Below the pieces are notes generated by a model. The model searched no databases. It worked only from the letters and a program-made list of their open reading frames with translations, and had not been told where the DNA came from. From Meghimatium bilineatum (Eukaryota; Mollusca; Gastropoda; Stylommatophora; Philomycidae), in the NCBI GenBank assembly GCA_034231615.1, contig CM067317.1, positions 44,772,652-44,836,651 on the forward strand: a stretch of 64,000 bases of DNA, read 5' to 3'. The translations under genes were made by a program, and so were the position numbers. Shown here one piece after another: positions 1-64,000 of this stretch. Every line of letters starts with the position of its first letter. Positions within the stretch are counted from its first letter, which is position 1.

Positions 1-1034
1 CTACCAGTAGAGTATCAAAATAAATAAATTTTGTTCTTTTTTTTTTCAAACGTTTCAGCACATCTCATAAATTGATTGTCAAATTATTAGAAATATATTT
101 TTTTATTTTCTCTTTCAAACTTTTCAACACATCTCATAAATGTATCTACCAGTAGAGTATCACTAGAAATATATCTTTTCATTTTCTTTTTCAAACTTTT
201 CAACACATTTCATAAGTGAATATAGTTTATCAAATGAAATTTATTTTTTGATTTTCTTTTTGAAATTTTTCCACACATTTCATAAATGTATCTAGTTTTT
301 ATCATTAGAAATTTATTTTTTTGATTTTGAAACTTTTCCACACATTTCATAAATGTATCTAGTTTATCATTAGAATTTTTGATTTTGAAACTTTTGAACA
401 TATCTCATAAATGTATCTACCGGTAGTTTATCATTAGAAATATGTCTTTTCATTTTATTTTTCAAACTTTTCAACACATTTCATAAATGTATATAGTTTA
501 TCATTTGAAATATATTTTTTTATTTTCTTTTTCAAACTTTTCAACACATCTCATGAATGTATCTACCAGTAGAGTATCACTAGAAATATATATTTTTATT
601 TTCTTTTTCAAACGTTTCAACACATAAATTGATTGTCAAATTATTAGAAATATGTTTTTTGATTTTCTTTTTCAAACTTTTCAACACATCTCATAAATGT
701 ATCTACCAGTAGATTATCACTAGAAATATATCTTTTCATTTTCTTTTTCAAACTTTTCATAAATGTATATAGTTTATCAATAGAAATATTTTTTTCTTAT
801 TTTCTTGTTCAAATTTTTCAACACATTTCATAAATGAATATAGTTTATCATTAGAAATATATTTTTTTCTTTTCTTTTCCAAATTTTCAACACATTTCAT
901 AAATGTATATAGTTTATCATTAGAAATATATTTTTTTATTTTCTTTTTCAAACTTTTCAACACATCTCATAAATGTTATCTACCAGTAGAGTATCACTAG
1001 AAATATATCTTTTCATTTTTGTTTTCAAACTTTT

Positions 1035-4000
1035 TAATACATGTCATAAATGTATATAGTTTACCATTATAAATATTTTTTTTTATTTTCAAAGTTTTGA
1101 ACACATTTCATAAGTGTATATAGTGTATATCAATAGAAATTTATTTTTTAATTTTCTTTTTGAAAAATTTCAACACATGTCATAAATGTATCTAGTTTTT
1201 ATAATTAGAAATATATTTTTTGATTTTTTAAACAACTTTTCAACACATCTCATAAATGTATCTAGTTTATGAATAGAAATATATTTGTTTTATTTTCAAA
1301 CTGTTCAACACATCTTATAAATGTATCTACCGGTAGAGTATCACTAGAAATATATTTTTTGATTTTCTTTTTCAAACTTTTCAACACTTCTCATAAATGT
1401 ATCTACCGGTAGATTATCACTAGAAATATATCTTTTCATTTTCTTTTTCAAACTTTTCATAAATGTATATAGTTATTATTAGAAATATTTTTTTTCTTAT
1501 TTTCTTGTTCAAATTTTTCAACACATTTCATAAATGTATCTAGTTTATCACTAGAAATATATTTTTTTGATTTTGAAACTTTTCAACACATTTCAGCAAT
1601 GTATCTAGTTTATCATTAGAAATATATTTTTTTATTTTCTTTTTCAAACTTTTCAACACATCTCATAAATGTATCTACCAGTAGAGTATCAAAATAAATA
1701 AATTTTGTTCTTTTCTTTTTCAAACGTTTCAGCACATCTCATAAATTGATTGTCAAATTATTAGAAATATATTTTTTTATTTTCTTTTTCAAACTTTTCA
1801 ACACATCTCATAAATGTATCTACCAGTAGAGTATCACTAGAAATATATTTTTTGATTTTCTTTATCAAACTTTTCAACACATCTCATAAATGTATCTACC
1901 GGTAGATTATCACTAGAAATATATCTTTTCATTTTCTTTTTCAAACTTTTCATAAATGTATATAGTTTATCATTATAAATATTTTTATTTTCTTTTTGAA
2001 ATTTTTCAACACATTTCATAAATGTATCTAGTTTTTATCATTAGAAATTTATGTTTTTGATTTTGAAACTTTTCCACACATTTCATAAATGTATCTAGTT
2101 TATCATTAGAAATTTTTTTTGTTTTGATTTTCAAACTTTTGAACACATCTCATAAATGTATCTACCGGTAGATTATCACTAGAAATATATCATTTCATTT
2201 TCTTTTTCAAACTTTTCAATACATTTCATAAATGTATATAGTTTATCATTATAAAATTTTTTTTTTTAATGTTTTGAACACATTTCATAAGTGTATATAG
2301 TTTATCAATAGAAATTTTTTTTTTCTTTTATAAATTTTTCAACACATTTCATAAATGTATCTAGTTTTTATCATTAGAAATATATGTTTTTGATTTTTCA
2401 AACTGTTCAACACATCTCATAAATGTATCTACCGGTAGAGTATCACTAGAAATATATTTTTTGATTTTCTTTTTTCAAACTTTTCAACACATCTCATAAA
2501 TGTATCTACCGGTAGATTATCACTAGAAATATATCTTTCCATTTTATTTTTCAAACTTATCAACACATTTCATAAATGTATCTAATTTATCATTAGAAAA
2601 AGATTTCTTTGATTTTGAAACTTTTCAACACATTTCAGCAATGTATCTAGTTTATCATTTGAAATATATTTTTTTATTTTCTTTTTCAAACATTTCAACA
2701 CATCTCATAAATGTATCTACCAGTAGAGTATCACTAGAAATATATTTTTTTATTTTCTTTTTCAAATGTTACAACACATTTCATAAATTGATTGTCAAAT
2801 TATTAGAAATATATTTTTTGATTTTCTTTTCCAAACTTTTCAACACATTTCATAAGTGTATATAGTTGATCAATAGAAATTTATTTTTTTATTTTCTTTT
2901 CCAAACTTTTAAACACATTTCATAAATGTATCTAGTTTATCACTAGAAATATATTTTTTGAATTTCATTTCCAAACTTTTCAACACATTTCATAAATGTA
3001 TCTAGCTTATGATTAGAAATATATCTTTTATTTTCTTTTTCAAACTTTTCAACACATCTCATAAATGTATCTAGTTTATCATTAGAAATATATTTTTTTG
3101 ATTTTCAAACTGTTCAACACATCTCATAAATGCATCTACCGGTAGAGTATCACTAGAAATATATATTTTGATTTTCTTTTTCAAACGTTTCAACACATAA
3201 ATTGATTGTCAAATTATTAGAAATATTTATTTCTTATGTTCTTGTTCAAACTTTTCAACACATTTCATAAATGAATATAGTTTATCACTAGAAATATATT
3301 TTTTGATTTTCTTTTCCAAATTTTAAACACATTTCATAAATGTATCTAGTTTATCATTAGAAATATATTTTTTTAAATTTCAAACTTTTCAACACATCTC
3401 ATAAATGTATCTACCGGTAGTTTATCATTAGAAATATATTTTTTGATTTTCAAACTTTTCAACAGATTTCATAAGTATATATAGTGTATCAATAGAAATT
3501 TATTATTGATTTTCTTTTTCAAACTTTTCAACACATTTCATAAATGTATCTAGTTTATCATTAGAAATATAATTTTTTATAAATTTCAAACTTTTCAACA
3601 CATCTCATAAATGTATCTACCGGTAGATTATAACTGGAAATATATCTTTTAATTTTCTTTTTCAAACTTTTCAACACATTTCATAAATGTATATTGTTTA
3701 TCATTATAAATATTTTTTTTGATTTTCAAACTTTTCAACACATTTCATAAGTGTATATAGTTTATCAATAGAAATTTATTTTTTGATTTTCTTTTTGAAA
3801 TTTTTCAACACGTCATAAATGTATCTACCGGTAGTTTATCATTAGAAATATATTTTTTAATTTTCTTTTTCAATCTTTTCAACACATCTCATAAATGTAT
3901 CTACCGGTAGATTATCACTAGAAATATATCTTTTCATTTTCTTTTTAAAACTTTTCAATACATTTCATAAATGTATATAGTTTATCATTATAAATATTTT

Positions 4001-7000
4001 TGTTTTCTTGTTCAAACTTTTCAACACATTTCATAAATGTATCTAATTTATCATTAGAAAATATTTCTTTGATTTTGAAACTATTCAACACATTTCAGCA
4101 ATGTATCTAGTTTATCAATAGAAATTTATTTTTTGATTTTCTTTTTGAAATTTTTCAACACGTCATAAATGTATCTACCGGTAGTTTATCATTAGAAATA
4201 TATTTTTTAATTTTCTTTTTCAATCTTTTCAACACATCTCATAAATGTATCTACCGGTAGATTATCACTAGAAATATATTTTTTCATTTTCTTTTTCAAA
4301 CTTTTCAACACATTTCATAAGTGAATATAGTTTATCAAATGAAATTTATTTTTTGATTTTCTTTTTGAAATTTTTCAACACATTTCATAAATGTATCTAG
4401 TTTTTATCATTAGAAATTTATTTTTTTGATTTTGAAACTTTTCCACACATTTCATAAATGTATCTAGTTTATCATTAGAATTTTTGATTTTGAAACTTTT
4501 GAACATATCTCATAAATGTATCTACCGGTAGTATATCATTAGAAATATGTCTTTTCATTTTATTTTTCAAACTTTTCAACACATGTCATAAATGTATATA
4601 GTTTACCATTTGAAATATTTTTTTTTATTTTCAAAGTTTTGAACACATTTCATAAGTGTATATAGTGTATATCAATAGAAATTTATTTTTTAATTTTCTT
4701 TTTGAAAAATTTCAACACATGTCATAAATGTATCTAGTTTTTATAATTAGAAATATATTTTTTGATTTTTAAACAACTTTTCAACACATCTCATAAATGT
4801 ATCTAGTTTATGAATAGAAATATATTTGTTTTATTTTCAAACTGTTCAACACATCTTATAAATGTATCTACCGGTAGAGTATCACTAGAAATATATTTTT
4901 TGATTTTCTTTTTCAAACTTTTCAACACTTCTCATAAATGTATCTACCGGTAGATTATCACTAGAAATATATCTTTTCATTTTCTTTTTCAAACTTTTCA
5001 TAAATGTATATAGTTATTATTAGAAATATTTTTTTTCTTATTTTCTTGTTCAAATTTTTCAACACATTTCATAAATGTATCTAGTTTATCACTAGAAATA
5101 TATTTTTTTGATTTTGAAACTTTTCAACACATTTCAGCAATGTATCTAGTTTATCATTAGAAATATATTTTTTTATTTTCTTTTTCAAACTTTTCAACAC
5201 ATCTCATAAATGTATCTACCAGTAGAGTATCAAAATAAATAAATTTTGTTCTTTTCTTTTTCAAACTTTTCAACACATCTCATAAATGTATCTACCGGTA
5301 GATTATCACTAGAAATATATCTTTTCATTTTCTTTTTCAAACTTTTCATAAATGTATATAGTTTATCATTATAAATATTTTTATTTTCTTTTTGAAATTT
5401 TTCAACACATTTCATAAATGTATCTAGTTTTTATCATTAGAAATTTATGTTTTTGATTTTGAAACTTTTCCACACATTTCATAAATGTATCTAGTTTATC
5501 ATTAGAAATTTTTTTTGTTTTGATTTTCAAACTTTTGAACACATCTCATAAATGTATCTACCGGTAGATTATCACTAGAAATATATCATTTCATTTTCTT
5601 TTTCAAACTTTTCAATACATTTCATAAATGTATATAGTTTATCATTATAAAATTTTTTTTTTTAATGTTTTGAACACATTTCATAAGTGTATATAGTTTA
5701 TCAATAGAAATTTTTTTTTTCTTTTATAAATTTTTCAACACATTTCATAAATGTATCTAGTTTTTATCATTAGAAATATATGTTTTTGATTTTTCAAACT
5801 GTTCAACACATCTCATAAATGTATCTACCGGTAGAGTATCACTAGAAATATATTTTTTGATTTTCTTTTTTCAAACTTTTCAACACATCTCATAAATGTA
5901 TCTACCGGTAGATTATCACTAGAAATATATCTTTCCATTTTATTTTTCAAACTTATCAACACATTTCATAAATGTATCTAATTTATCATTAGAAAAAGAT
6001 TTCTTTGATTTTGAAACTTTTCAACACATTTCAGCAATGTATCTAGTTTATCATTTGAAATATATTTTTTTATTTTCTTTTTCAAACATTTCAACACATC
6101 TCATAAATGTATCTACCAGTAGAGTATCACTAGAAATATATTTTTTTATTTTCTTTTTCAAATGTTACAACACATTTCATAAATTGATTGTCAAATTATT
6201 AGAAATATATTTTTTGATTTTCTTTTCCAAACTTTTCAACACATTTCATAAGTGTATATAGTTGATCAATAGAAATTTATTTTTTTATTTTCTTTTCCAA
6301 ACTTTTAAACACATTTCATAAATGTATCTAGTTTATCACTAGAAATATATTTTTTGAATTTCATTTCCAAACTTTTCAACACATTTCATAAATGTATCTA
6401 GCTTATGATTAGAAATATATCTTTTATTTTCTTTTTCAAACTTTTCAACACATCTCATAAATGTATCTAGTTTATCATTAGAAATATATTTTTTTGATTT
6501 TCAAACTGTTCAACACATCTCATAAATGCATCTACCGGTAGAGTATCACTAGAAATATATATTTTGATTTTCTTTTTCAAACGTTTCAACACATAAATTG
6601 ATTGTCAAATTATTAGAAATATTTATTTCTTATGTTCTTGTTCAAACTTTTCAACACATTTCATAAATGAATATAGTTTATCACTAGAAATATATTTTTT
6701 GATTTTCTTTTCCAAATTTTAAACACATTTCATAAATGTATCTAGTTTATCATTAGAAATATATTTTTTTAAATTTCAAACTTTTCAACACATCTCATAA
6801 ATGTATCTACCGGTAGTTTATCATTAGAAATATATTTTTTGATTTTCAAACTTTTCAACAGATTTCATAAGTATATATAGTGTATCAATAGAAATTTATT
6901 ATTGATTTTCTTTTTCAAACTTTTCAACACATTTCATAAATGTATCTAGTTTATCATTAGAAATATAATTTTTTATAAATTTCAAACTTTTCAACACATC

Positions 7001-26415: not shown

Positions 26416-29237
26416 TTTATTAGTTTGAAATTTAAAAAAAATATATTTCTAATGATAAACTGATACATTTATGAAATGTGTTGAATAGTGTGATCTTTAA
26501 AAAAAACATATTTCTAGTGATAAACTAGATACATTTATGAAATGTGTTGAAAAGTTTGGAAAAGAAAATCAAAAAATATATTTCTAGTGATAATCTAGAT
26601 ACATTTATGAAATATGTTGAAAAGTTTGAACAATAAAATTGAAAAAAAATATTTCTAATGATAAACTAGATACATTTATTAAATTTTTTGAAAAGTTTGA
26701 AAAAGAAAATCACAAAATATATTTCTAATGTTAAACTAGATACATTACTGAAATGTGTTGAAAAGTTTGGAAAAGAAAATCAAAAAATAAATTTCTAGTG
26801 ATAAACTAGATACATTTATGAAATATTTGTTGAAAAGTTTTAACAAGAAAATAAAAATAAATATTTCTAATGATAAACTATATACATTTATGAAATGTGT
26901 TGAAAAGTTTGAAAAAGAAAATGAAAAGATATATTTCTAGTGATAATCTACCGGTAAATATATTTATGAGATGTGTGGAAAAGATTGAAAAAGAAAATAA
27001 AATAAAATATTTCTAATGATAAACTACCGGTAGATACATTTATGAGATGTGTTGAAAAGTTTGAAAAAGAAAATAAAAAATATATTTCTAATGATAAACT
27101 AGATACATTTGTGAAATGTGTTGAAAAGTTTGGAAATGAAAATCAAAAAATATATTTCTAGTGATAAACTAGATACATTTATGAAATATGTTGAAAAGTT
27201 TGAACAAGAAAATGAAATGATATATTTCTAATAATTTGACAATCAATTTATGTGTTGAAACGTTTGAAAAAGAAAATGAAAAGATATATTTGCAGTGATA
27301 ATCTACTGTTAGATACATATATGAAATGTTTGAAAAAGAAAATAAAAAAATATATTTCTAATGATAAACTAGATACATTGCTGAAATGTGTTGAAAAGTT
27401 ACGAAATCAAAGAAATATTTTTCTAATGATAAATCAGATACATTTATGAAATGTGTTGAAAAGTTTGAACAAGAAAATAAAAAATAAATATTTTTAATGA
27501 TAAACTATATACATTTATGAAATGTGTTGAAAAGTTTGAAAAATAAAAAATATTTCTAATGATAAACTAGATACATTTATGAAATGTGTTGAAAAGTTTC
27601 AAAATCAAAAAAATATATTTCTAATGATAAAAACTAGATACATTTATGAAATGTGTTGAAAAATTTCAAAAAGAAAATCAAAAAATAAATTTCTATTGAT
27701 AAATTATATACACTTATGAAATGTGTTCAAAACTTTGAAAAAGACAATAAAAATATATATTTCTAGTGATAATCTACCGGTAGATACATTTATGAGATGT
27801 GTTGAAAAGTTTGAAAAAGAAAATCAAAAAATATATTTCTAATAATTTGACAATCAATTTATGAGATGTGTTGAAACGTTTGAAAAAGAAAATTAAAAAA
27901 TATATTTCTAGTGATACTCTACTGGTAGATACATTTATGAGATGTGTTGAAAAGTTTGAAAAAAAAAATAAAAATATATTTCTAATGATAAACTTGATAC
28001 ATTGCTGAAATGTGTTGAAAAGTTTCAAAATCAAAGACATATTTTTCTAATGATAAATTAGATACATTTATGAGATGTGTTGAAAAGATTGAAAAAGAAA
28101 ATTAAAAAATATATTTCTAATGATAAACTACCGGTAGATACATTTATGACATGTGTTGAAAAATTTCAAAAAGAAATTCAAAAAATAAATTTCTATTGAT
28201 AAACTATATACACTTATGAAATGTGTTGAAAAGTTTGAAATTTTTAAAAAATTATTTCTAATGATAAACTAGATACATTTATGAAATGTGTTGAAAGTTT
28301 GGAAATGAAAATCAAAAAATATATTTCTAGTGATAAACTAGATACATTTATGAAATGTGTTTAAAAGTTTTAAATTTAAAAAAAATATATTTCTAATGAT
28401 AAACTGATACATTTATGAAATGTGTTGAATAGTGTGAAATTTAAAAAAAACATATTTCTAATGATAAACTAGATACATTTATGAAATGTGTTGAAAAGTT
28501 TGGAAAAGAAAATCAAAAAATATATTTCTAGTGATAATCTAGATACATTTATGAAATATGTTGAAAAGTTTGAACAAGAAAATAAAAAAAAATATTTCTA
28601 ATGATAAACTATATACACTTATTAAATGTGTTGAAACGTTTGAAAAAGAGAATAAAAAAATATATTTCTATTGATACTCTACCGGTAGATACATTTATGA
28701 GATGTGTTGAACAGTTTGAAAATCAAAAATTTTTATTTCTAATGATAAACTAGATACATTTATGAGATGTGTTGAAAAGTTTGAAAAAGAAAGTAAAAAA
28801 TATATTTCTAGTGATAAACTAGATACATTTATGAAATATTTGTTGAAAAGTTTTAACAAGAAAATAAAAATAAATATTTCTAATGATAAACTATAAACAT
28901 TTATGAAATGTGTTGAAAAGTTTGAAAAAGAAAATGAAAAGATATATTTCTAGTGATAATCTACCCGTAAATACATTTATGAGATGTGTGGAAAAGATTG
29001 AAAAAGAAAATAAAAAAAAATATTTCTAATAATAAACTACCGGTAGATACATTTATGAGATGTGTTGAAAATTTTGAAAAAGAAAATTAAAAATATATTT
29101 CTAATGATAAACTAGATACATTTGTGAAATGTGTTGAAAAGTTTGGAAATGAAAATCAAAACATATATTTCTAGTGATAAACTAGATACATTTATGAAAT
29201 ATGTTGAAAAGTTTGAACAAGAAAATGAAATGATATA
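26409..29237 (-). repeat. AT-rich satellite array, right arm, proximal part
   Basis: These are the same monomers as the left arm but inverted. A higher-order unit of about 1.95-2.0 kb is visible: the GAATAGTGTGA variant at about 26,485 recurs near 28,430, and the GAAAATGAAATGATATA variant at 27,210 recurs at 29,221. The array is interrupted at 29,237 by the pogo element. Open frames of 65-88 codons are satellite artefacts. Confidence 0.95.
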
Positions 29238-30008: not shown

Positions 30009-31331
30009 TCATTGAAATCCTTCGAAGTCCGAATCACTGTCTGAAGTCTGAAATAACTCATGAATGTCATCATCTGTCATGGAAACATCAGGGTGGATAT
30101 CGTCAGTCTCTGGTACATTGTCGTCGTCGGCATCGTCCTCAAAGATAGCGTCGCCCTCACTTCCATCCATTGCGTTACTTATTGAACACTTTTTGAAAGA
30201 TCTGATGATCATTTCGGATGAAATATCAGACCACGATTCTTTGACCCACGTAACGATTGTGGTGATGTCAACTTTTTTAATGTTACCACCCTTCGTCACT
30301 GCTAAATCAGATGATGCCATCCAGTCATTCCATTTTGCTCGGAGTCTGTCCTTGAATGGTTTGTTCAGGCAGACATCTAGTGGCTGTAAGAGGGATGTAA
30401 GTCCCCCAGGAATGACGGAAACAGACAACCCCATCTCACGGCATCGTTGTACCACTTTCTCTGTGAGATGCGCCCTAAATGAATCCCAGACTAGCATGGA
30501 TGGTTTTTTTAAAGCGGCCCCCTTCCTCTGCCCCCACACTTTATCCAGCCATTCCAGAGTACCACTTTCGTCCATCCAACCTTTCGTGTGAGCACGCACA
30601 AATACGCCACTTGGGAATTTAATACCCTTAGGCAGAGTCTTGCGTTTAAATATAATCACGGGGGGCAAACGTGACCCATCTGCCATGCAAGCTAATACAA
30701 CAGTGAATCGTGTTTTTTCATGCCCAGTTGTCTTTACAAAAACTGTCTTCGCACCTTTGCATTCAACGGTGCGATTAGAAGGCATATCAAAGCAGACAGG
30801 TGTCTCGTCCATGTTTCCTATTTGAGATAGATCGTAGTTAAATCTCTTCCTCAGGTTGATAGTGAAACGTTGAAACAAATCAATTTTTGTTTCTAGCTCC
30901 TTCGGCAACTTTTGCGCCAGCTTAGTGCGTGTTCGTAGACACAAGTGATGTCTGTTCATAAAGCGATTGCACCATCCCATTGACGCAACGAAGTCCTCAG
31001 ATTTGTTATTCTGGAATGCAGGATCTTTCAATATCGAGAGCGCCCTGATTCGAATATTGGTGCGGGTTATAATTAATCCGATCTGTCTAGACTCCATTAT
31101 CCATTCTGATAATTTCTTCTCCAGCGCAGGGAATGAAGCTGTACGGCCACGTGATGCTCTCTTTGATCTTGGCATCAAAGACAATTCTTCCTTTTTTTTC
31201 CTCCATTCTCGCACTTGCTTTTCATTCACAATGAAGTGGCGGGAAGCCATGGAATTGTTGGACTTCTCCGCAAAAGCGATAACATCCAACTTAAAACCAG
31301 CAGTATACGATGTTCGTTTCTGTCCAGGCAT
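30009..31331 (-). CDS. Pogo-like transposase (Brinker-type HTH, CENP-B HTH, DDE_1)
   Basis: This 440-aa uninterrupted ORF is full length for the family. Residues 1-55 form a Brinker-type helix-turn-helix (GFKLDVIAFAE, then RHFIVNEKQVREWRKKK). Residues 65-135 match the CENP-B-type HTH, with LEKKLSEWI and GWCNRFMNRH. The DDE_1 catalytic core spans about 170-380. The three acidic positions are D175 (NMDETP), D283 (VWDSFRAHL) and D319 (LLQPLDV), a DD35D spacing typical of pogo. The C-terminus (395-440) is very acidic. The chosen ATG is the first in frame and precedes the first helix directly. The enzyme should bind the terminal repeats and catalyse cut-and-paste transposition into TA in the nucleus. 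No stop or frameshift is present, so activity is possible but untested. Confidence 0.93.
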   Translation of the reverse strand: MPGQKRTSYTAGFKLDVIAFAEKSNNSMASRHFIVNEKQVREWRKKKEELSLMPRSKRASRGRTASFPALEKKLSEWIMESRQIGLIITRTNIRIRALSILKDPAFQNNKSEDFVASMGWCNRFMNRHHLCLRTRTKLAQKLPKELETKIDLFQRFTINLRKRFNYDLSQIGNMDETPVCFDMPSNRTVECKGAKTVFVKTTGHEKTRFTVVLACMADGSRLPPVIIFKRKTLPKGIKFPSGVFVRAHTKGWMDESGTLEWLDKVWGQRKGAALKKPSMLVWDSFRAHLTEKVVQRCREMGLSVSVIPGGLTSLLQPLDVCLNKPFKDRLRAKWNDWMASSDLAVTKGGNIKKVDITTIVTWVKESWSDISSEMIIRSFKKCSISNAMDGSEGDAIFEDDADDDNVPETDDIHPDVSMTDDDIHELFQTSDSDSDFEGFQ

Positions 31332-32317: not shown

Positions 32318-34937
32318 TATTTCTAATAATTTGACAATCAATTTATGTGTTGAAACGTTTGAAAAAGAAAATGAAAAGATATATTTCCAGTGATAATCTA
32401 CTGGTAGATACATATATGAAATGTTTGAAAAAGAAAATAAAAAAATATATTTCTAATGATAAACTAGATACATTGCTGAAATGTGTTGAAAAGTTACGAA
32501 ATCAAAGAAATATTTTTCTAATGATAAATCAGATACATTTATGAAATGTGTTGAAAAGTTTGAACAAGAAAATAAAAATAAATATTTTTAATGATAAACT
32601 ATATACATTTATGAAATGTGTTGAAAAGTTTGAAAAATAAAATGAAAAGACATATTTCTAATGATAAACTACAGCTAGATACATTTATGAGATGTGTTGA
32701 AAAGTTTCAAAATCAAAAAAATATATTTCTAATGATAAAAACTAGATACATTTATGAAATGTGTTGAAAAATTTCAAAAAGAAAATCGAATAATAAATTT
32801 CTATTGATAAACTATATACACTTATGAAATGTGTTCAAAACTTTGAAAAAGACAATAAAAATGTATATTTCTAGTGATAATCTACCGGTAGATACATTTA
32901 TGAGATGTGTTGAAAAGTTTGAAAAAGAAAATCAAAAAATATATTTCTAATAATTTGACAATCAATTTATGAGATGTGTTGAAACGTTTGAAAAAGAAAA
33001 TTAAAAAATATATTTCTAATGATAAACTTGATACATTGCTGAAATGTGTTGAAAAGTTTCAAAATCAAAGAAATATTTTTCTAATGATAAATTAGATACA
33101 TTTATGAGATGTGTTGAAAAGATTGAAAAAGAAAATTAAAAAATATATTTCTAATGATAAACTACCGGTAGATACATTTATGACATGTGTTGAAAAATTT
33201 CAAAAATGTAATCAAAAAATAAATTTCTATTGATAAACTATATACACTTATGAAATGTGTTGAAAAGTTTCAAAATCATAAAAAAATATTTATAATGATA
33301 AACTATATACATTTATGAAATGTGTTGAAAAGTTTGGAAAAGAAAATCAAAAAATATATTTCTAGTGATAATCTAGATACATTTATGAAATATGTTGAAA
33401 AGTTTGAACAAGAAAATACAAAAAAATATTTATAATGATAAACTATATACAATTATTAAATGTGTTGAAACGTTTGAAAAAGAGAATAAAAAAATAAATT
33501 ACTATTGATACTCTACCGGTAGATACATTTATGAGATGTGTTGAACAGTTTGAAAATCAAAAAAATATATTTCTAATGATAAACTAGATACATTTATGAG
33601 ATGTGTTGAAAAGTTTGAAAAAGAAAGTAAAAAATATATTTCTAATGATAAACTAGATACATTTGTGAAATGTGTTGAAAAGTTTGGAAATGAAAATAAA
33701 AAAATATATTTCTAGTGATAAACTAGATACATTTATGAAATGTGTTGAATAGTGTGAAATTTAAAAAAAACATATTTCTAATGATAAACTAGATACATTA
33801 ATGAAATGTGTTGAAATGTTTGAAAAAGAAAATGAAAAGATATATTTCTAGTGATAATCTACAGGTAGATACATTTATGAGATGTGTTGAAAAGTTTGAA
33901 AAAGAAAATTGAAAAAAAATATTTCTAATGATAAACTAGATACATTTATGAAATGTGTTTAAAAGTTTTAAATTTAAAAAAAATATATTTCTAATGATAA
34001 ACTGATACATTTATGAAATGTGTTGAATAGTGTGAAATTTAAAAAAAATATATTTCTAATGATAAACTAGATACATTTATGAAATGTGTTGAAAAGTTTG
34101 GAAAAGAAAATCAAAAAATATATTTCTAGTGATAATCTAGATACATTTATGAAATATGTTGAAAAGTTTGAACAAGAAAATAAATAAAATATTTCTAATG
34201 ATAAACTATATACACTTATTAAATGTGTTGAAACGTTTGAAAAAGAGAATAAAAAAATATATTTCTATTGATACTCTACCGGTAGATACATTTATGAGAT
34301 GTGTTGAACAGTTTGAAAATCAAAAAAATATATTTCTAATGATAAACTAGATACATTTATGAGATGTGTTGAACAGTTTGAAAATCAAAAAATATATTTC
34401 TAGTGATAAACTAGATACATTTATGAAATGTGTTTAAAAGTTTGAAATTAAAAAAAAAATATATTTCTAATGATAAACTGATACATTTATGAAATGTGTT
34501 GAATAGTGTGAAATTAAAAAAAAACATATTTCTAATGATAAACTAGATACATTTATGAAATGTGTTGAAAAGTTTGGAAAAGAAAATCAAAAAATATATT
34601 TCTAGTGATAATCTAGATACATTTATGAAATATGTTGAAAAGTTTGAACAATAAAATTGAAAAAAAATATTTCTAATGATAAACTATATACATTTATGAA
34701 ATGTGTTGAAAAGTTTGAAAAAGAAAACGAAAAGATATATTTCTAGTGATAATCTAGATACATTTATGAAATATGTTGAAAAGTTTGAACAATAAAATTG
34801 AAAAAAAATATTTCTAATGATAAACTAGATACATTTATGAAATGTGTTGAAATGTTTGAAAAAGAAAATGAAAAGATATATTTCTAGTGATAATCTACCG
34901 GTAGATACATTTATGAGATGTGTTGAAAAGTTTGAAG
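32318..34937 (-). repeat. AT-rich satellite array, right arm, distal part
   Basis: The inverted monomers resume immediately after the pogo TSD and closely follow the sequence at 27,228 onward: the unusual ACATATATGAAATGTTTG monomer is in both. Positions 32,318-34,300 are therefore another copy of the roughly 2-kb higher-order unit. The array ends at about 34,937, fused to a FOXRED1-like exon copy. Confidence 0.95.
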
Positions 34938-39748: not shown

Positions 39749-39751
39749 TTA

Positions 39752-39763
39752 CACTGCGCAACA
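39752..39763 (+). repeat. Left terminal inverted repeat of the CACTG element
   Basis: CACTGCGCAACA is identical to the reverse complement of 45,293-45,304 and is preceded by TTA. Confidence 0.9.
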
Positions 39764-39915
39764 AAAAAAAGTTTTTTTTTTTTCTTACAAGTATAAAATT
39801 AGTCAATTCCTACTGAAAATGGGTTGAGAAAAATGAATATGACATCAGAAAATGTTTATTAGCTCTAGTTTTTGAGTTATTGTAATTTCAATATTTGTAT
39901 TAAAAATCCTATTTC

Positions 39916-40971
39916 TTATTGTTTCCTTTTCCTCTTGTATACCACTTCTGGAGCTTCTCTTGTGACATTCCAGCAGTAGTCAGCAAGCATGGATGTATTC
40001 CACTTACCCTGGTACCTTTTTTCCATCAATGCAATGTCTTGGTGGAAACGCTCCCCATGTTCATCACTTACTGCACCACAATTTGGAGGGAAGAAATCAA
40101 GATGAGAATCCAGGAAGTGGATCTTAAGTGACATGTTGCAACCTAATTGTTGATATGCTGTCAGAAGTTCATTAATAGCAACAGGATAGTTCTCACTTCT
40201 ATGATTGCCCAGGAAATTTTGTACAACACATTTGAAAGATTGCCATGCACCTTTCTCATTCCCATGAATAATGGCATCAAAATGCTCATCTTTCAACAGT
40301 TCCCTTATCTGTGGGCCTACAAATAATCCTTCCTTTATTTTACCATCACTAAGGTAATGAAATTTTGTCCTCAAGTACTTAAATGCCTCTCCCTCCCTAT
40401 TCATGCCCTTGATAAAGTTCTTCATTAGCCCCAATTTAATATGAAGAGGAGGTAGAATTATTTTATTTCTATCAACCAAAGAAATTTGCTGTACATTCTT
40501 TTCACCAGGCTCCATAACCTTCCTATCAGGCCAAGTTTTCCTAATGTAATGAGAAGTTCTCTGTCGACTGTCCCATTCACACAGAAAGCAACAATATTTT
40601 GTGTAACCTAATTGCATTCCAAGTAAAATTGCAATAACTTTCAAGTCTGCACAAATCTGCCACTGATGATCATCATATTTTATTGTTTTAAGAAGTAATT
40701 TCATATTTTCATAAGTCTCCTTCATGTGGACAGCATGGCCTATAGGGATAGAAGGTAATGAATTGCCATTGTGTAGCAAAACTGCTTTCAAACTTAACTT
40801 TGATGAGTCAATGAATAACCTCCACTCTTGTTGTATGTGCTCTATTTTCAAAGCTTCCATAAGCCCATTAACATCATGGCAAGCAACAATGCTATTATTC
40901 ATTGTGAAAAATGGAGTTAGAGATTTCTGACGTTCTCTGTCACACCTGTTATTCTTTACCAAAATGTTCAC
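39916..40971 (-). CDS. Orphan DDE-like transposase, C-terminal catalytic part
   Basis: An open frame of 351 codons starts at a GTG, so the true left border is probably an exon acceptor near 40,931 (upstream CAG). The conserved core begins at about residue 13 (RQKSLTPFF). Landmarks are LFIDSSKLSLKAVLLHNGN (D55), WQICADLKVIAILLGMQLG (D109), a Cys cluster CCFLCEWDSR (127-131), LPPLHIKLGLMKNF (H177), GCNMSLKIHFLDSHLDFFP (281-295) and VSDEHGERFHQD (E304/E307). Two aspartates, a CxxC insert and a late glutamate suggest a DDE/D nuclease with a zinc-binding insertion; this is my reading of the motifs. Proteins of this kind are common, usually unnamed, in invertebrate genomes. A minus-strand AATAAA lies at 39,855-39,860. 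No stops interrupt it. Confidence 0.8.
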   Translation of the reverse strand: MNILVKNNRCDRERQKSLTPFFTMNNSIVACHDVNGLMEALKIEHIQQEWRLFIDSSKLSLKAVLLHNGNSLPSIPIGHAVHMKETYENMKLLLKTIKYDDHQWQICADLKVIAILLGMQLGYTKYCCFLCEWDSRQRTSHYIRKTWPDRKVMEPGEKNVQQISLVDRNKIILPPLHIKLGLMKNFIKGMNREGEAFKYLRTKFHYLSDGKIKEGLFVGPQIRELLKDEHFDAIIHGNEKGAWQSFKCVVQNFLGNHRSENYPVAINELLTAYQQLGCNMSLKIHFLDSHLDFFPPNCGAVSDEHGERFHQDIALMEKRYQGKWNTSMLADYCWNVTREAPEVVYKRKRKQ

Positions 40972-41360
40972 TCTTAGTTAGGCCACACAGGAGGCATTTC
41001 AGCTATTGTAGTCCTGAAGGGCGTTACAGACCTGACATATTTATTACCCAGCGCTGAATGAAAAAATTCGCGTGGAGGCTTGGATTTCGCTTCTGGTTCA
41101 AAGATACCGTTTCTCAATTTTGCGAATTTTATACAGCAGCCAGAGTTTGTGCATTTGCAAGCACAACTCAACATTTTCCATCATCATATTTTTGTACAAG
41201 TCCTATTAGGTTGTCATTGTTTTTGACCAGTGCACATTCAATATTTATACAGGTAAGACAATTTCGTTGTTCTTCATGTTAATTTAGTAGGCCTAATATC
41301 ATTACTTTACATACAGTGTCAAATTTGTTAGATCATCGTTTACCATAAGAATGTACAAAT
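40972..41360. other. Presumed intron or spacer with Cys-rich open stretch
   Basis: On the minus strand, 40,974-41,174 is open with a Cys cluster (MLSCACKCTNSGCC) and stops 3 bp before the frame of the catalytic ORF. I do not recognise it. The rest is AT-rich and leads into the 201-bp array. Confidence 0.35.
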
Positions 41361-42720
41361 TAAACCTATTATGCCACGATCAAACACTAGTTTAGCATGT
41401 ATATCTAATTAGATCTCATTTTACTTGTGCAAATATGATCAAAATTAGTTACATTGCGCAATTAGATCATGTAAAAGATTCATTCTTTGTGTAGCATTAA
41501 CGTTACGAACTTGTCTTCATGATAATTTTTCTATTCGTGGTCGGCAAATATAAGTCCAAAATAAACCTATTATGCCACCATCAAATACTAGTTTAGCTTG
41601 TATATCTAGTTAGATCTCATTTTACTTGTGCAAATATGATCGAAATTAGTTACATTGCGCAATTAGATCATGTAAAAGATTCATTCTTTGTGTAGCATTA
41701 ACGCTACGAACTTGTCTTCATGATAATTTTTCAATTCGTGGTCGGCAAATATAAGTCCAAAATAAACCTATTATGCCACCATCAAATACTAGTTTAGCTT
41801 GTATATCTAGTTAGATCTCATTTTACTTGTGCAAATATGATCGAAATTAGTTACACTGCGCAATTAGATCATGTAAAAGATTCATTCTTTGTGTAGCATT
41901 AACGCTACGAACTTGTCTTCATGATAATTTTTCAATTCGTGGTCGGCAAATATAAGTCCAAAATAAACCTATTATGCCACCATCAAATACTAGTTTAGCT
42001 TGTATATCTAGTTAGATCTCATTTTACTTGTGCAAATATGATTGAAATTAGTTACATTGCGCAATTAGATCATGTAAAAGATTCATTCTTTGTGTAGCAT
42101 TAACGCTACGAACTTGTCTTCATGATAATTTTTCAATTCGTGGTCGGCAAATATAAGTCCAAAATAAACCTATTATGCCACCATCAAATACTAGTTTAGC
42201 TTGTATATCTAGTTAGATCTCATTTTACTTGTGCAAATATGATCGAAATTAGTTACATTGCGCAATTAGATCATGTAAAAGATTCATTCTTTGTGTAGCA
42301 TTAACGCTACGAACTTGTCTTCATGATAATTTTTCTATTCGTGGTCGGCAAATATAAGTCCAAAATAAACCTATTATGCCACCATCAAATACTAGTTTAG
42401 CTTGTATATCTAGTTAGATCTCATTTTACTTGTGCAAATATGATTGAAATTAGTTACATTGCGCAATTAGATCATGTAAAAGATTCATTCTTTGTGTAGC
42501 ATTAACGCTACGAACTTGTCTTCATGATAATTTTTCAATTCGTGGTCGGCAAATATAAGTCCAAAATAAACCTATTATGCCACCATCAAATACTAGTTTA
42601 GCTTGTATATCTAGTTAGATCTCATTTTACTTGTGCAAATATGATCGAAATTAGTTACATTGCGCAATTAGATCATGTAAAAGATTCATTCTTTGTGTAG
42701 CATTAACGCTACGAACTTGT
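41361..42720. repeat. 201-bp tandem array inside the CACTG element
   Basis: The string TAAACCTATTATGCCAC starts at 41361, 41562, 41763, 41964, 42165, 42366 and 42567, an exact 201-bp period, giving about 6.8 copies with only one to a few substitutions each. Every unit contains CATTGCGCAA, or in the copy near 41,854 CACTGCGCAA, which equals the first ten bases of the element ends. Homogeneity points to recent expansion. Units contain stop codons in the frames I checked and are not coding. Confidence 0.95.
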
Positions 42721-42887
42721 TCTGTGTGATAGTTATCAATCGCGGTTGTTTCCCCATAACCGTTCGAATAAGTTCGTTGCATGCTACACATACACAGAAA
42801 AGTAATTTACTATTGTAATAAGTATATGTTATACGTTTCTTTTGTGAAAATGTGTTAATAATATTTTAAAATTTATTTCAAAACAGG
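42721..42887 (+). promoter_or_regulatory. Upstream region of the RAG1-N-like gene
   Basis: AT-rich DNA between the 201-bp array and the ATG at 42,888. The ATG is preceded by TTTATTTCAAAACAGG, which could be a splice acceptor, so the true first exon may lie further upstream. Confidence 0.3.
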
Positions 42888-43968
42888 ATGGATCACTGCA
42901 GTTCACTACACATGCGATTTTTGAATGATTTGTGCAGAATTTGTGTAGGAAGAACATTATCTAAGAAAGATAAAAGGATGCAGAAGAAACCACGGTCCTG
43001 TAGCTTATATCAAAGTGACCTGGCTAGTATTTATGGGATACATATCATGGACGATAGTGAAACAAAAAATTCAACCACATTGTGTGTCAAGTGTGTAATG
43101 CGAAATCATAAACTCAAAATCAACAAGGATAGTAAATCTCTAGCTCGAGCCAAATTGATAGCTACTAACAGTGCCCACATCTGGATGGATTTTAATCCTA
43201 ACCTAACTGTTTTAGAATGTTCCGTGTGTAGTCATCATCAAAGTATGAACTGTGGCAGCATAAAAAGAAAGAGAGTTTTTGATAATTCTGATAATGATCA
43301 TGATGTATCTGTGTATGTGTTATTTCCTGCTACAGAAACAGAGGAAGATATTCTAATGCCAGTGACAGCAAGATTGTCTCCACAACTCACCAATAGTAAT
43401 AACAATCCAACAAATTTAACAGTACCCACAGCTCGCCGTTGTCTTCAATATAATAATGGAATATTTTCCACATTTGCAACAACTGCATATCCACAATGTA
43501 GCTATACCAGCACACCTTCCACATTTACAACACCTGCATATCCACAATGTAGTTATACCAGCACACCCTCCACATATTTTAGACCTTCAACGCCCAATAA
43601 CATACACGATTCTGCTATATCTAGCATATAACCTGCAGTTACAACATGTACAGTTTCTGAATTCAGAAAGTTAACATCAGACAGCGCCACTTCTCCCATG
43701 ATGAAACATGACTTTAGTTTTAAAAAATCTATCAGCAAACCTATATCAGAACAGAACCTTGACAAATAAGGAGGAATTATTACTCACACATCTAATTAGA
43801 AGGAAGCTTTACAACAACCCTAATAAACTTTTACGGTGCAAAACAGGAGGACAACCTTTAGTGTTTCAAAGAATAATAGTTCCACGAAAACAAACAAATC
43901 TAATTGGCACACCAACAAAAAGAAGAAGAACTAATTTGCTATGCAGTGTACGGAAACATATTGCATGA
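42888..43968 (+). pseudogene. RAG1 N-terminal-like zinc-binding transposon gene, decaying
   Basis: The first ORF (42,888-43,631, 247 aa) has C16-C19 (LCRICVGRTLSKK), C66-C69 (TTLCVKC), W99 (HIWMDFNP) and C111-C114 (LECSVCSHH). The order CRIC, FCxxC-like, then W...CxVC follows the RAG1 N-terminal region and the sea-slug transposon protein N-RAG-TP; similarity is judged by eye. A Thr/Ser/Pro-rich tail repeats AYPQCSYTSTPST twice. After the TAA at 43,629 the same frame stays open to 43,768 (TVSEFRKLTSD), then coding continues one frame over (ELLLTHLIRRKL, TGGQPLVFQRI) to 43,968. One stop and one frameshift therefore break it. AATAAA occurs at 43,822-43,827. It lies antisense between the two transposase ORFs. 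Confidence 0.65.
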
Positions 43969-43974
43969 GATACG

Positions 43975-44110
43975 CGATACATGTGGGAGAATAACATAAC
44001 AAGATGGACAGGGTACAGTCTAGCAGAGTGCATCACCAAAACAAGAGGCAGGGGATGTTGAGATCTGTTGCAGCCAACCTTTGTTGCAGAAATGGTACTA
44101 GATGATGTCT
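43975..44110 (+). pseudogene. LINE 3' tail fragment inside the CACTG element
   Basis: The frame reads ITRWTGYSLAEC and then LRSVAANLCCRNGT. The stretch ATGGACAGGGTACAGTCTAG is nearly repeated at 63,614 in another LINE. It follows directly on the last codon of the RAG1-N-like gene, so it may have truncated that gene. Confidence 0.5.
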
Positions 44111-44132
44111 ACCTGCCAAGTTTCTGGCTTGT

Positions 44133-44155
44133 GTCCCCTGATTTCACCAGGGGAC
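44133..44155. repeat. Perfect 8-bp stem hairpin
   Basis: GTCCCCTG, loop ATTTCAC, CAGGGGAC. It lies between the convergent plus-strand pseudogene and the minus-strand N-terminal ORF. Confidence 0.7.
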
Positions 44156-44210
44156 AATTGAAGGGTTTCTCTTATTTCCCTTGAATTTTCTAATTGCAAT
44201 TGAATTGACA

Positions 44211-44237
44211 GTGGGCGTGAACAGTGAACACGCCCAC
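44211..44237. repeat. Perfect 9-bp stem hairpin
   Basis: GTGGGCGTG, loop AACAGTGAA, CACGCCCAC. It is GC-rich in an AT-rich neighbourhood and lies just beyond the minus-strand stop at 44,259. Confidence 0.7.
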
Positions 44238-44258
44238 CTCTGGTTTATTGATATCTCC

Positions 44259-44954
44259 TTAAAAACTAAGAGTCCATCTAGTTACAGGTGTGCTGTACAT
44301 AGACACCTTAACATTTTTATCCAGGAGATTCCACTGCTGAAGTCTTGATGCAAGAAGTTCAGCTTTTGTTTTAGATAAGTCAAGATCTCGAATTAAGTCA
44401 CTTAGTTCATTTTGAGAAATTCTATGTAGAATATCAACAGAACCTATTGGTGTGAATTGAGTATCTTCCTGTTCAAACTCAGGTTGTATTTCTTGACCAC
44501 AATCTGCATCAAGCTCTATAACTTTCTGGTTGGGTGAGGTAGGAACAGGCAGATCTTTTCCATGTGGTACTGGCCGTATAGCTGATGGAATATTGGGGTA
44601 ATTCAAAGTCCACTTCTTCTTTTTAGATATTCCGTGTTGGAGAGGAGGCACCATACAAAAATAGCAGTCACTTACATGATCTCTCGGCTCTCTCCATATC
44701 ATAGGAATCGCGAAAGGCATTGACCGCACTTTGCCATTCAGCCAACCACAGAGTTTCACAGTACATGTAATACAGCAAATGTGAGGTGCCCAGGGTTTGT
44801 CTTGATCACCTATCTTACAGCCGAAGTAAAGATGATATGCAGTTTTAATTAAAGGTGTAATATTACGTTTTTGAGACGACAACGTCCCCTCGCCACAAAC
44901 ATAGCAAAAATTGTTAGCACTATTAACGCACTTTCGTGACATTATGGAATCCAA
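44259..44954 (-). CDS. Orphan transposase N-terminal part: Cys-rich zinc-binding protein
   Basis: The 231-aa ORF starts at ATG 44,954. Cys/His pairs occur at C17-C20 (CYVCGE), H58-C60-C61-C64 (APHICCITC) and C97-C100 (DCYFC), with MPFAIPMIWREP between, so two zinc-binding modules are likely. Residues 180-218 (LSDLIRDLDLSKTKAELLAS) form a predicted helical linker. As I remember related proteins, this N-terminal part is directly continued by the RQKSLTPFF core found at 40,931, so both ORFs probably belong to one gene. A possible donor is CTAT|GTACAG at about 44,293, phase-compatible with the acceptor at 40,931. Alternatively the ORF ends at its own stop, and AATAAA lies at 44,244-44,249 just after it. 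DNA binding at the element ends is inferred. Confidence 0.75.
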   Translation of the reverse strand: MDSIMSRKCVNSANNFCYVCGEGTLSSQKRNITPLIKTAYHLYFGCKIGDQDKPWAPHICCITCTVKLCGWLNGKVRSMPFAIPMIWREPRDHVSDCYFCMVPPLQHGISKKKKWTLNYPNIPSAIRPVPHGKDLPVPTSPNQKVIELDADCGQEIQPEFEQEDTQFTPIGSVDILHRISQNELSDLIRDLDLSKTKAELLASRLQQWNLLDKNVKVSMYSTPVTRWTLSF

Positions 44955-45292
44955 TCTTTATACAAATTCAGACATTTATAGCACTGGAAAATAAAATATA
45001 TATATACTACTTGAAAATTTTAATTATATACACATTTTGAAATATGTGGTTTGTTTTTTACATCAACACACGATTTAAACAATATAGCGGCCATTGAGAG
45101 AAGTTGCACGGTGTCAACATGCATTCGTCGCTGAATAAATTTTTCGTTAGAAAAATTTTCCACTTTTTTCGACACAATAAACAAGGAATATCACAACAAC
45201 AAGAGCAAACTGAGAATTTTTAATGTGATATTCGTTTTTCTCACCACATTTTCAGTAGGAAATAATTATTTTCATGTCTGTAATTTTTTATG
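44955..45292. other. Right subterminal region of the CACTG element
   Basis: Non-coding, AT-rich, with the conserved subterminal inverted tract at about 45,225-45,262. It is the probable promoter region for the minus-strand ORF that starts at 44,954. Confidence 0.5.
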
Positions 45293-45304
45293 TGTTGCGC
45301 AGTG
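45293..45304 (-). repeat. Right terminal inverted repeat of the CACTG element
   Basis: TGTTGCGCAGTG is the exact partner of the left end and is followed by TTA at 45,305-45,307. Confidence 0.9.
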
Positions 45305-45307
45305 TTA

Positions 45308-48746: not shown

Positions 48747-48974
48747 ATGTCCCGACGCAAACGAGTTTTAGTTATCACTATCGCTGCACATAATAGCACT
48801 AAAGAAAATGACATTTTGTTACGCAGTGTGCTGTCTCTACCTGCCGAAAATGCACTAACGTTTGTGTTTTAGTGTTTTCTACGTATCGGCATCTATCAAT
48901 TTCACTGGTGTTACACAGAAATCCATGAGGTCGAATAGTTAAAGATGTAAACGGTGTGCTATTGCGGTTCCTAA

Positions 48975-52365: not shown

Positions 52366-53390
52366 AAATTTTTTTTTCTTCTTCTTTCGTTCACTTGAAA
52401 CATGTCTATATCTGTAATTCTGTCTCCTTAATAAAACTCACTGTCCTCTGTAGTTCATACAGTGTCCCATAGAGCTTTGATTCCAGTGTTGTTTCCTCTG
52501 GCCAATATGTCATCCTCAGCGTTGCATGCTCAGAACACTCTTGAAGTATATGTTTGGCACTCTGTGCTGCCACATGTACACCTGGCCGTGTTGCCAATCT
52601 TGAACTTTGTATACATGTGACTGCGGAGTCGGTTGTGTCCTGTTCTGAGACGTAGAATTATAACTTGTTCTGATCTGTTCATAATGTGATAGTCATCTTG
52701 TGTTGGTGTTTGTGGCTTTCTTATTGACTTGATCATCTGTTTTTTCTGATGGTAGGTGATTGGTATATCTGGTTGGTCTTCGGCAGCACCTTCATTAGCC
52801 AGTTGGTCTGCTTTTTCATTTCCTGGTATTCCACAGTGAGAGGGTATCCACTGCATGGTTACCCTATACTGGTAAGACAATTCGCTAATTAGTTTTTTCA
52901 AGTCTGTTAGTTTTCCAGACTGGAGAGCTTGAAGCACTGACCTTGCATCTATCAGGAATACCACAGGCTGTAGGCCAGAGTTGGAGTTCAGCAGTTTTTT
53001 AGCTGCCACACTAATTGCCTGGATTTCTGCATCATAATTATTGCAGAATTTTCCCGTTGGTGTTCTGATTGTATCTCTAGGCTTGTGTGGATATTCTATA
53101 TATACACCTGCACCTCCATTCCTCACAGCATTCTGTGCTGACCCATCTGTGTATACTCTGACCCATATATCTTGTGGATATTCCTCATCCAGGAAACTGA
53201 GGGTGACTGTCATTCGCTGCACACTGTTCTGTTCATCCTCGCTTAGTATTCCTTTCACATGGGTCTGAATGTATATTGGCATTCCATGGCTTTCTAGTTT
53301 GTCAATGAAAAATACAGATTTAAATACCTTATTCCTCAAAGGCGTGTACAAGAAATACTTGGCTAGAGGAATGCACAAAGACTGCAACTG
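52366..53390 (-). pseudogene. LINE 3' part with RNase H domain
   Basis: The 285-codon minus-strand frame carries an RNase HI fold: VRVYTDGSAQNA (D), NYDAEIQAI (E), FLIDARSVLQAL (D), then WIPSHCGIPGNEKADQLANE (H and D). A post-RNase-H tail follows, RLRTGHNRLRSHMYTKFKIG then CTCG. Near 52,565 five bases (TGTCC) are missing relative to the copy at 62.9 kb, so the end (QSAKHILQECSEH, YWPEETTLESKLYGTLYEL) is in another frame down to 52,406. The 3' end is an A-rich tail at about 52,366. The 5' side stops at about 53,390, before any RT, so it is 5'-truncated. An RNase H after the RT is typical of I/Jockey/R1-type LINEs. Confidence 0.88.
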
Positions 53391-58159: not shown

Positions 58160-59240
58160 AAAACAAACAAACTATGTAATTATTTATGAAAACCCATGTT
58201 ATCGATGCTATTGATGGATTAACAAAAGCTCCAGATTTATTGCCCCCCCCCTCCCAGACGATCAAGCTCCCTCTGCAAATTCCTGGCGCTCGTTTCTCTA
58301 TCTCTACCTTGACTATACACCAAGATGTCATCAGCATAGGACATAGTTCTCATTGGTCCTGCAATTTGACAGCTTGTAATTTGAACTGTATACACATTAA
58401 ATAATAATGGGGACAGAGATGACCCTTGTGACTATTGGCGCCAAAGATCAACTCCCACACTTAAGAACAACCTGTCTCTGAAAAAGTCTCGAGACAATCC
58501 ACCTGACAATAAAATTACTTACTTGGAGTTGCATCATTATGGTCATCAAGAAGTTCACGGGAACTCTGTTTTAAGCATCTTCCTGGTCTATTACAGTCTC
58601 CATTCGTTCGTCAAAACTTTCAAACACTTCTTGCGCGAATACGGCAACGTTGTGCCGAGTCTGCTTACCTGGATGATAGCCTCCCAATGTTGAGGGCAGT
58701 CTATTACTCTCTAGATGTAGGGACAATTTCCACTCAACAATCTTTTCTAACAACTTGCCGATCGTATTCTGCATGGTTATGAGCCTGAAACCCTGTATCT
58801 TTGAATGACTCTTGTCAGGCTTGGGTAGTAGGATTAAATAACTATACAGCCAGTTTTCTTCTACTGAGCTATTCACAAGGCTCTTGTTGAACAACATTGC
58901 CAGCTCCTTAAGGTCCTCGTCTGACCTGCTTCTAAGATCGTCATACCTAATGCCGCCAGGTCCTGGCACTGAGTTTCTTGATCTTTTTAGTGCGGCTGTA
59001 ATATCTTCAAGAGTAATTGCATTATCGCTTTATATAACTTGCTTATTGCACATGTCTGTGACTGTTTTCATTATTTCATTGTAATTTCCTATGTTCCTCT
59101 GACCAATTTGTGCCTTATAATGAGCCAGCGGTTCTGCACCCTTATTCTCAACTGTCTTCTGCCATACTAAGCCTGTGCTTTTGAAAATTGGGGATTGTTA
59201 TACGCTTCCTTGGGTAGTTCATTGATTTGTGCAGGCACCA
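58160..59240 (-). pseudogene. LINE reverse transcriptase domain
   Basis: The minus strand has ITLEDITAALKRSRNSVPG, PGGIRYDDLRSRSDEDLKEL, LYSYLILLPKPDKSHSKIQG, FRLITMQNTIGKLLEKIVEW and HNVAVFAQEVFESFDE (to 58,571). Then, in changed frames, the catalytic box SYADDILVYS lies at about 58,345. RT blocks 1-5 are thus present in order with at least two frameshifts. The YADD is intact, but the element as a whole cannot be functional. Confidence 0.85.
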
Positions 59241-62600: not shown

Positions 62601-64000
62601 AAAAGAACTCTTATTGGGTTGTCTGGAGTGTAATGCCATCGGCGTAGAAATTCACTAATCACTAGAGATTGTCTTCGATATGCAGATTCTTCTTCTTCTT
62701 TCGTTCACTTGAAACATGTCTATATCTGTAATTTTGTCTCCTTAATAAAACTCACTGTCTTTTGTAGTTCATACAGTGTCCCATAGAGTTTTGATTCCAG
62801 TGTTGTTTCCTCTGGCCAATATGTCTGCCTCAGCGTTTCATGCTCAGAACACTCTTGAAGTATATGTTTGGCACTCTGTGCTGCCTGTCCACATGTACAC
62901 ATGGCTGTGTTGCCAATCTTGAACTTTGTATACATGTGACTGCGGAGTCGGTAGTGTCCTATTCTGAGACGTAGAATTATAACTTGTTCTGATCTGTTCA
63001 TAATATGATAGTCATCTTGTGGATATGCAGATGACACTATCCTTTTAGCAGAAAGTGAAAAGGAACTACTGGCTAATAGATCAAGTACAGAATATGGACT
63101 AGATGTAGGAAAAAAATATATAAAACCATAGAATCAGAAGAACATGTGCTAGACATGAACATACATGTAGAGATACTGTAACACGTGGATCATTTCCAAT
63201 ATATTGGACACATAATCACAAATGGTAGATGTTAAAAAGAAGTTAAAAGGAGAATAGAAATGGCTAAAATTACTTTCAATGACATGATAAAAATATTAAC
63301 ATCTAAACAAATTACAGACATACTAAAATATTGGAATTATAAAATGATACATTTATTCTATATTGATGTATTCCTATGGCTCAGAAATTGGACAATGAAC
63401 AAACAACTAGGAGGCAGAATTGAAGACAAAAACGAACAAAGAAGTTCTAATAACACGTCGTATGAAGAAAGAATTATTGAAGAAAATAAAAATCAAACAA
63501 ATAAAGTATTTTGGACATCTTAAAAGACATGAGAACATGTTGAAGACCTTACTTGAGGGTAAAGTCGAGGGCATGAGAACAAGAGATGCAGATAGGAGAG
63601 AAAAATCATGATATGGACAGGTTACAGTCTAGAAGAGTGCACCACTGAGGTAAAATTCGGCAATCGATAATAAATAAGACTTCTGTAAAATTGTAGGAAT
63701 ATACAATTACTTAGGCATAGGTAGAACACCAGTGATGTGAAACAGAAGTTAAAAGGAGAATAGGAATGGCTAAAAGTACCTTCAATGACATGAGGAAAAT
63801 ATTAATATCTAAACAAATTACAAAGTTAAAAATGAGAATTATAAAATGCTACATCTATTCCATATTAATGTATGGCTCAGAAACATGGACACTAAATAAA
63901 CAATTAGAAGACAAAATTGATGCCTTTGAGATGTGGGTATATAGAAGAATAGGGAGAACATCATGGAAAGAGAAGAAAACAAATAAAGAGGTGCTAAAGA
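62601..64000 (+). pseudogene. LINE RT and post-RT region, interrupted, runs off the window
   Basis: The plus strand reads TRDCLRYADD up to 62,687, is interrupted by another LINE end, and resumes as YADDTILLAESEKELLANRS at 63,022. Post-RT text follows with many stops, then IKIKQIKYFGHLKRHENM (63,480-63,535) and WTGYSLEEC. From about 63,740 a second related copy starts (RIGMAKSTFNDMRKILISKQ, YSILMYGSETW), matching 63,239 onward. Two copies of one family therefore lie head to tail, the second cut by the window edge. Confidence 0.8.
62688..63021 (-). mobile_element. LINE 3' end inserted in another LINE, 11-bp TSD
   Basis: The exact 11-bp duplication GATATGCAGAT flanks it (62,677-62,687 and 63,022-63,032). 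The minus-strand frame is intact from 63,020 to 62,720: MNRSEQVIILRLRIGHYRLR, CTCGQAAQSAKHILQECSEH, YWPEETTLESKLYG. It is the same family as 52,366-53,390, with a (GAA)n tail at 62,688-62,697. Only about 330 bp of 3' end were inserted, typical of 5' truncation during target-primed reverse transcription. Confidence 0.93.

Follow-up and report, generated by a model that had tools for sequence, protein, structure and literature searches.

The window, by which we mean the whole stretch of 64,000 nucleotides of Meghimatium bilineatum contig CM067317.1 analysed here, includes a unit of 5553 bp at positions 39752-45304, which ends on both sides in a perfect 12-bp inverted repeat, CACTGCGCAACA (exact matches at 39752-39763 on the plus strand and at 45293-45304 on the minus strand), and is flanked by a target-site duplication, TTA (39749-39751 and 45305-45307). 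Two open reading frames (ORFs) on the minus strand (39916-40971 and 44259-44954) enclose a cysteine-rich ORF on the plus strand. A preliminary description of the locus had recorded this arrangement correctly; it took the minus-strand ORFs for an orphan DDE-like protein in two parts, likened the plus-strand ORF to the N-terminal region of RAG1, and proposed either a two-gene element or a nested pair. It overlooked a second set of ends inside the unit, CACACCTGT at 40941 and 44292 with a duplication of CTGT, as well as a 201-bp tandem array and the stretch in which the plus-strand gene goes on after a frameshift (43708-43968).

The second set of ends delimits an inner element of 3352 bp (40941-44292, plus strand; ends CACACCTGT...ACAGGTGTG; the right inverted copy of CACACCTGT at 44284-44292, minus strand), flanked by CTGT at 40937-40940 and 44293-44296. 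The locus has a good and largely ordinary explanation: a Chapaev transposon that has suffered a deletion sits inside the transposase gene of a Chapaev3 transposon, both of the CMC/RAG1-related cut-and-paste kind. We put the probability of this nested arrangement at about 0.97. The nested pair is thus the part of the earlier proposal that stands, while the two-gene element is contradicted by uninterrupted outer copies and by the duplication that the inner block has of its own, the two findings that the preliminary description had itself named as its refutation.

The outer element and its uninterrupted copies

When positions 40941-44292 are removed together with one copy of CTGT, the minus strand reads as a single uninterrupted 556-aa frame. 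Its 3′ portion (39916-40940, minus strand) encodes the C-terminal part of the protein with the D/D/E, C(2)C, LH and H(4)H motifs, and its 5′ portion (44293-44942, minus strand) encodes a cysteine-rich N-terminal domain. A protein search returned 2447 relatives at E ≤ 0.001, of which 120 listed homologues were aligned. The 26 residues around the insertion point are all kept in 119 of these, and 25 of them in the other one; D260, D314, C333/C336, H382, H490/H495 and E512 are conserved at 1.0 (rounded) throughout the alignment. Judged from sequence, the two minus-strand pieces are one ordinary single-exon Chapaev3 DDE transposase, split by insertion, and not an orphan protein in two parts.

The genome (1.6 Gb) was searched with the outer C-terminal piece, which gave at least 117 matches (116 of 4303 candidates scored). 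All 19 other outer copies fetched (L002-L020) align straight across the insertion site, 18 of them ungapped and one (L003) with four gap positions; only the copy in the window (L001) breaks off there. The middle block with the plus-strand gene is absent from all 19.

The assignment to Chapaev3 is made by features. The outer element resembles the Chapaev3 families Merrow, Garfield and Conan in its 5′-CAC...GTG-3′ ends, in a TWA duplication lying between A and T, and in its 556-aa transposase with C(2)C, LH and H(4)H motifs (PMC4079192); it departs from the Chapaev3 norm in that the window copy is interrupted by another transposon. The flanks in the window read A-TTA and TTA-T, which is TWA with A before and T after. 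Among the 11 other outer loci with both exact ends, eight have TWA flanks, six of these again with the preceding A and the following T. The inverted likeness of the outer ends runs further inward in weaker form (97-nt arms at 75%), and 500 first-order Markov simulations of the unit contained no 12-bp ends that, together with a 3-bp duplication, span 5000-5553 bp.

Outside the unit, a lone CACTGCGTAACA (48817-48828, minus strand) differs from the outer end by one mismatch; no outer-element sequence was found adjoining it.

The inner family and its full-length relatives

The inner element contains a 201-bp tandem array of about seven copies (41356-42720, plus strand), common to other inner-family copies and present also in a full-length relative, where it has about nine. 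The array is followed, on the plus strand, by the cysteine-rich N-terminal part of a transposase (42888-43631; 247 aa with CRIC, CVKC and CSVC, and TAA at its end) and, past a frameshift, by the continuation of the same gene with a KTGGQP stretch (43708-43968). The latter runs up to a deletion junction (43965-43966, plus strand), where the DDE part, which takes up 2.85 kb in the full-length relative, has been lost. In the window, the inner gene is broken by one stop and one frameshift. We also weighed TAGTTACACTGCGCAA at 41848-41863 as a second outer-type end; the other six of the seven 201-bp repeats read CATTGCGCAA, and it is most simply a point change within the array and probably not an end.

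The source of the gene remnant is found in the same genome. A full-length relative (L055+L056) measures 6656 bp, has CAC..GTG ends and a CAGT duplication, and encodes one 979-aa protein, which combines a cysteine-rich N-part (CxxC pairs from residues 16, 66 and 111; CKTGGQP from 332) with a C-terminal DDE domain. The stretches that carry the DDE, C(2)C, LH and H(4)H motifs are FGGDHG from 520, FLFGDYD from 589, CLWC from 612, PPYLH from 676, HILEFH from 901 and GEQGGE from 922; the three catalytic residues within these stretches were assigned by our own reading. At least 58 matches to the 979-aa protein were obtained (47 of 2721 candidates scored); seven of the places found cover residues 1-979, and five of these seven have no internal stop. 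The plus-strand ORF, which had been likened to the RAG1 N-terminal region, is what remains, at the N-terminal side, of the transposase that the inner element itself encoded, and no captured partner gene. The window's inner element matches only positions 1-3480 and 6328-6656 of the full-length relative, which means that 2.85 kb with the DDE part has been lost.

A DNA search with positions 42761-44292 gave 43 rows at no fewer than 40 places (40 of 4292 candidates scored): 27 of the short form (L021-L047, the window's copy included), 10 partial and three otherwise rearranged. In the partial places the match stops at query position 1203 or 1205. The left 400 bp of the inner element, used as a query, gave at least 40 matches at 97-100% (40 of 643 candidates scored). 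One identical deletion junction is shared by all 27 short-form loci fetched, implying a single deletion that was subsequently amplified. In L049, one of the 10 partial places, the frame runs past the stop point of the window copy into a DDE domain (Pfam DUF1280, E 2.7e-17), terminated by another deletion than that of the short form; this DDE part in turn found at least 128 matches (121 of 438 candidates scored). Among the eight inner copies with both ends, seven have identical 4-bp flanks (the window's CTGT, L027, L032, L036, L037, L045 and L055/L056).

The family resembles Chapaev in its CAC..GTG ends, its 4-bp duplications, within the 3 to 4 bp of that group, and its cysteine-rich N-part followed by DDE with C(2)C, LH and H(4)H (PMC4411706, PMC4079192, PMC12730594). 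Unlike Chapaev, the window copy is without the DDE part. Further features of this family are the 201-bp array and, towards the 3′ side, a stretch of repeat origin. Deletion derivatives as such have precedent: MITEs (miniature inverted-repeat transposable elements) that derive directly from full-length Chapaev elements by internal deletion have already been published (PMC4079192).

The 3′ region of the family (positions 6176-6303 of the L055/L056 element) is 84% identical to another stretch of the window, 63439-63566. The translation of that stretch resembles what we take to be the tail of a LINE ORF.

Competing readings and the course of events

Non-autonomous elements require only their ends for amplification in trans, and the spread of the short form calls for nothing beyond them. 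By analogy, it might nonetheless have been kept because its N-only protein acts, for instance by repressing transposition, a role that truncated transposases play elsewhere (KP in the P element is an example). The 27 loci with one junction would agree with this, as would the open 373-aa N-only frame retained in L026 and six other places that match residues 1-376 or 1-377 of the 979-aa protein, though each of the six has at least one internal stop. The state of the frames argues against a function having been retained: 20 of the 27 short-form loci (L028-L047) have neither the start codon nor the first cysteine pair, and the window copy has its stop and frameshift. Seven short-form loci extend to the start region. 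In six of them the first stop comes after 247 (the window), 247, 263, 263, 373 and 71 aa; in L023, no exact start motif was found. We consider a function of the N-only protein unlikely.

That the unit is a composite CACTG element, in which a transposase and an antisense RAG1-N-like partner moved together, agrees with the position of both genes within one pair of ends and one TTA duplication. It is very hard to reconcile with the 19 outer copies that have no such block, with the block's own ends and duplication, and with the occurrence of its family at 40 or more genome places. Moreover, when 27 right flanks from the 29 other inner loci (L022-L050) were compared with the outer element, not one gave a match, which makes the nesting a single event among those tested. 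A reading of the block as an intron within the minus-strand transposase gene, with a gene on the opposite strand inside it, has its precedent in the two-exon transposases of Merrow and Garfield (PMC4079192) but is equally improbable, in view of the 4-bp duplication around the block and its absence from the other copies fetched. We rejected both models on the uninterrupted outer copies and the duplication.

Some observations count against a Chapaev inside a Chapaev3. Among the 11 outer loci with both exact ends, two have AAA flanks and L010 has unequal 3-bp flanks; L049, with both ends visible, is without matching 4-bp flanks. A profile search with the outer family found by sequence no RAG1 chain in PDB, and the outer protein (P0001) and both window pieces matched no Pfam family. 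Furthermore, a pair of 9-bp ends with a 4-bp duplication occurs in 235 of 500 Markov copies of the AT-rich unit. This signal is weak alone, and the case for nesting accordingly rests on the restored frame and on the copies elsewhere.

The nested arrangement can be described in four steps, the first three of which the sequence itself shows. A Chapaev3 element of 2.2 kb, coding in a single exon for one DDE transposase of 556 aa, inserted at TTA; a 3352-bp member of the Chapaev family later inserted at CTGT, at codons 216-217, inactivating the transposase gene; the inserted copy is non-autonomous, a 2.85-kb internal deletion having taken the DDE half of its transposase (979 aa in full-length relatives) and left the cysteine-rich N-part; and the deleted form was amplified, presumably mobilised in trans by full-length relatives, as the shared ends and the copy number suggest. 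Each element most likely moved by cut and paste, its ends acted upon by a DDE transposase from the same family, and the inner copy, its DDE domain gone, most likely depended on full-length relatives.

Relation to RAG1 and other features of the window

The predicted fold of the outer transposase core matches the structures of RAG1 and HzTransib, with about 12-14% identity in the alignments, from which the outer family is predicted to have an RNase H core in a RAG1-like arrangement. Between the two families, the outer profile aligns with the catalytic parts of the full-length inner protein at E 7.3e-4, for which the reported probability is only 26%, and it gave no match to the alignment of the inner N-part. 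Both families have short duplications (3 and 4 bp), compared to 5 bp for Transib (PMC8355894).

The link that had been drawn to RAG1 is justified only in part. The "Chapa" domain of the RAG1 N-terminus is reported in Chapaev and Chapaev3 (PMC4411706); a zinc-binding domain has been located at RAG1 residues 87-217 (PMC3124419), and three N-terminal zinc motifs have been named for RAG1 (PMC7204232). Three CxxC pairs follow one another in the inner N-part, but the relation to RAG1 is not confirmed by sequence: searches with the N-part found no RAG1 family in Pfam, where the sole row was SseK_NleB under its curated cut-off, and no RAG1 chain in PDB, where rows were unrelated or absent. Nor did the DDE part of L049 find RAG1 in PDB by sequence. 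A first protein search with the inner N-part returned no relative at E ≤ 0.01 among 128 candidates, and a read-through query one weak relative among 2640 (P0121, 26%, E 6.8e-5); a fold predicted from the inner protein's single sequence was of no use (pLDDT 34). No RAG2-like match was seen among the four ORF pieces scanned, and viral contigs scanned with the outer and with the inner protein yielded no relative of either.

The two genes of the unit are no working pair, and a tempting false lead is thereby removed. What the locus offers is a worked case of how deletion leaves an element with a RAG1-N-like gene alone and how that element goes on to spread, and the case bears on the reading of N-RAG-TP, reportedly described by Panchin and Moroz in 2008, in accounts of the origin of RAG1. 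N-RAG-TP of Aplysia californica is likewise a transposable element, the coding part of which is described as only RAG1-N-terminal-like (PMC8355894, PMC2996935, PMC13337447). The two are likened by description only; in the present case the inner family has full-length relatives in the same genome, so that its N-only state is a deletion. It is possible, if somewhat doubtful, that N-RAG-TP and other N-only transposons with a RAG1-N-like gene form no separate kind but have arisen repeatedly from Chapaev by internal deletion, the source transposase already joining a cysteine-rich N-part to a RAG1-like DDE core. If so, source and derivative would stand side by side in this genome, one derivative at 27 copies or more, and the idea that RAG1 arose by fusion of Transib with an independent N-only transposon would be weakened. 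An ancestral fusion has already been argued (PMC4411706), which in part anticipates the deletion-derivative reading.

Elsewhere, the window holds a very large array of 70-bp units, at 22-26372 in one orientation and at 26436-29237 reversed, with a further stretch at 32345-34936. Between two stretches of this array lies a 440-aa ORF (30009-31331, minus strand) with DDE_1, HTH_Tnp_Tc5 and BrkDBD domains, which we take to be pogo/Tigger-like. Retrotransposon-like pieces occur at 52530-53387 and 58571-58969 (both minus strand); they comprise an RNase H domain (E 7.8e-15) and a match to reverse transcriptase that falls short of the curated cut-off.

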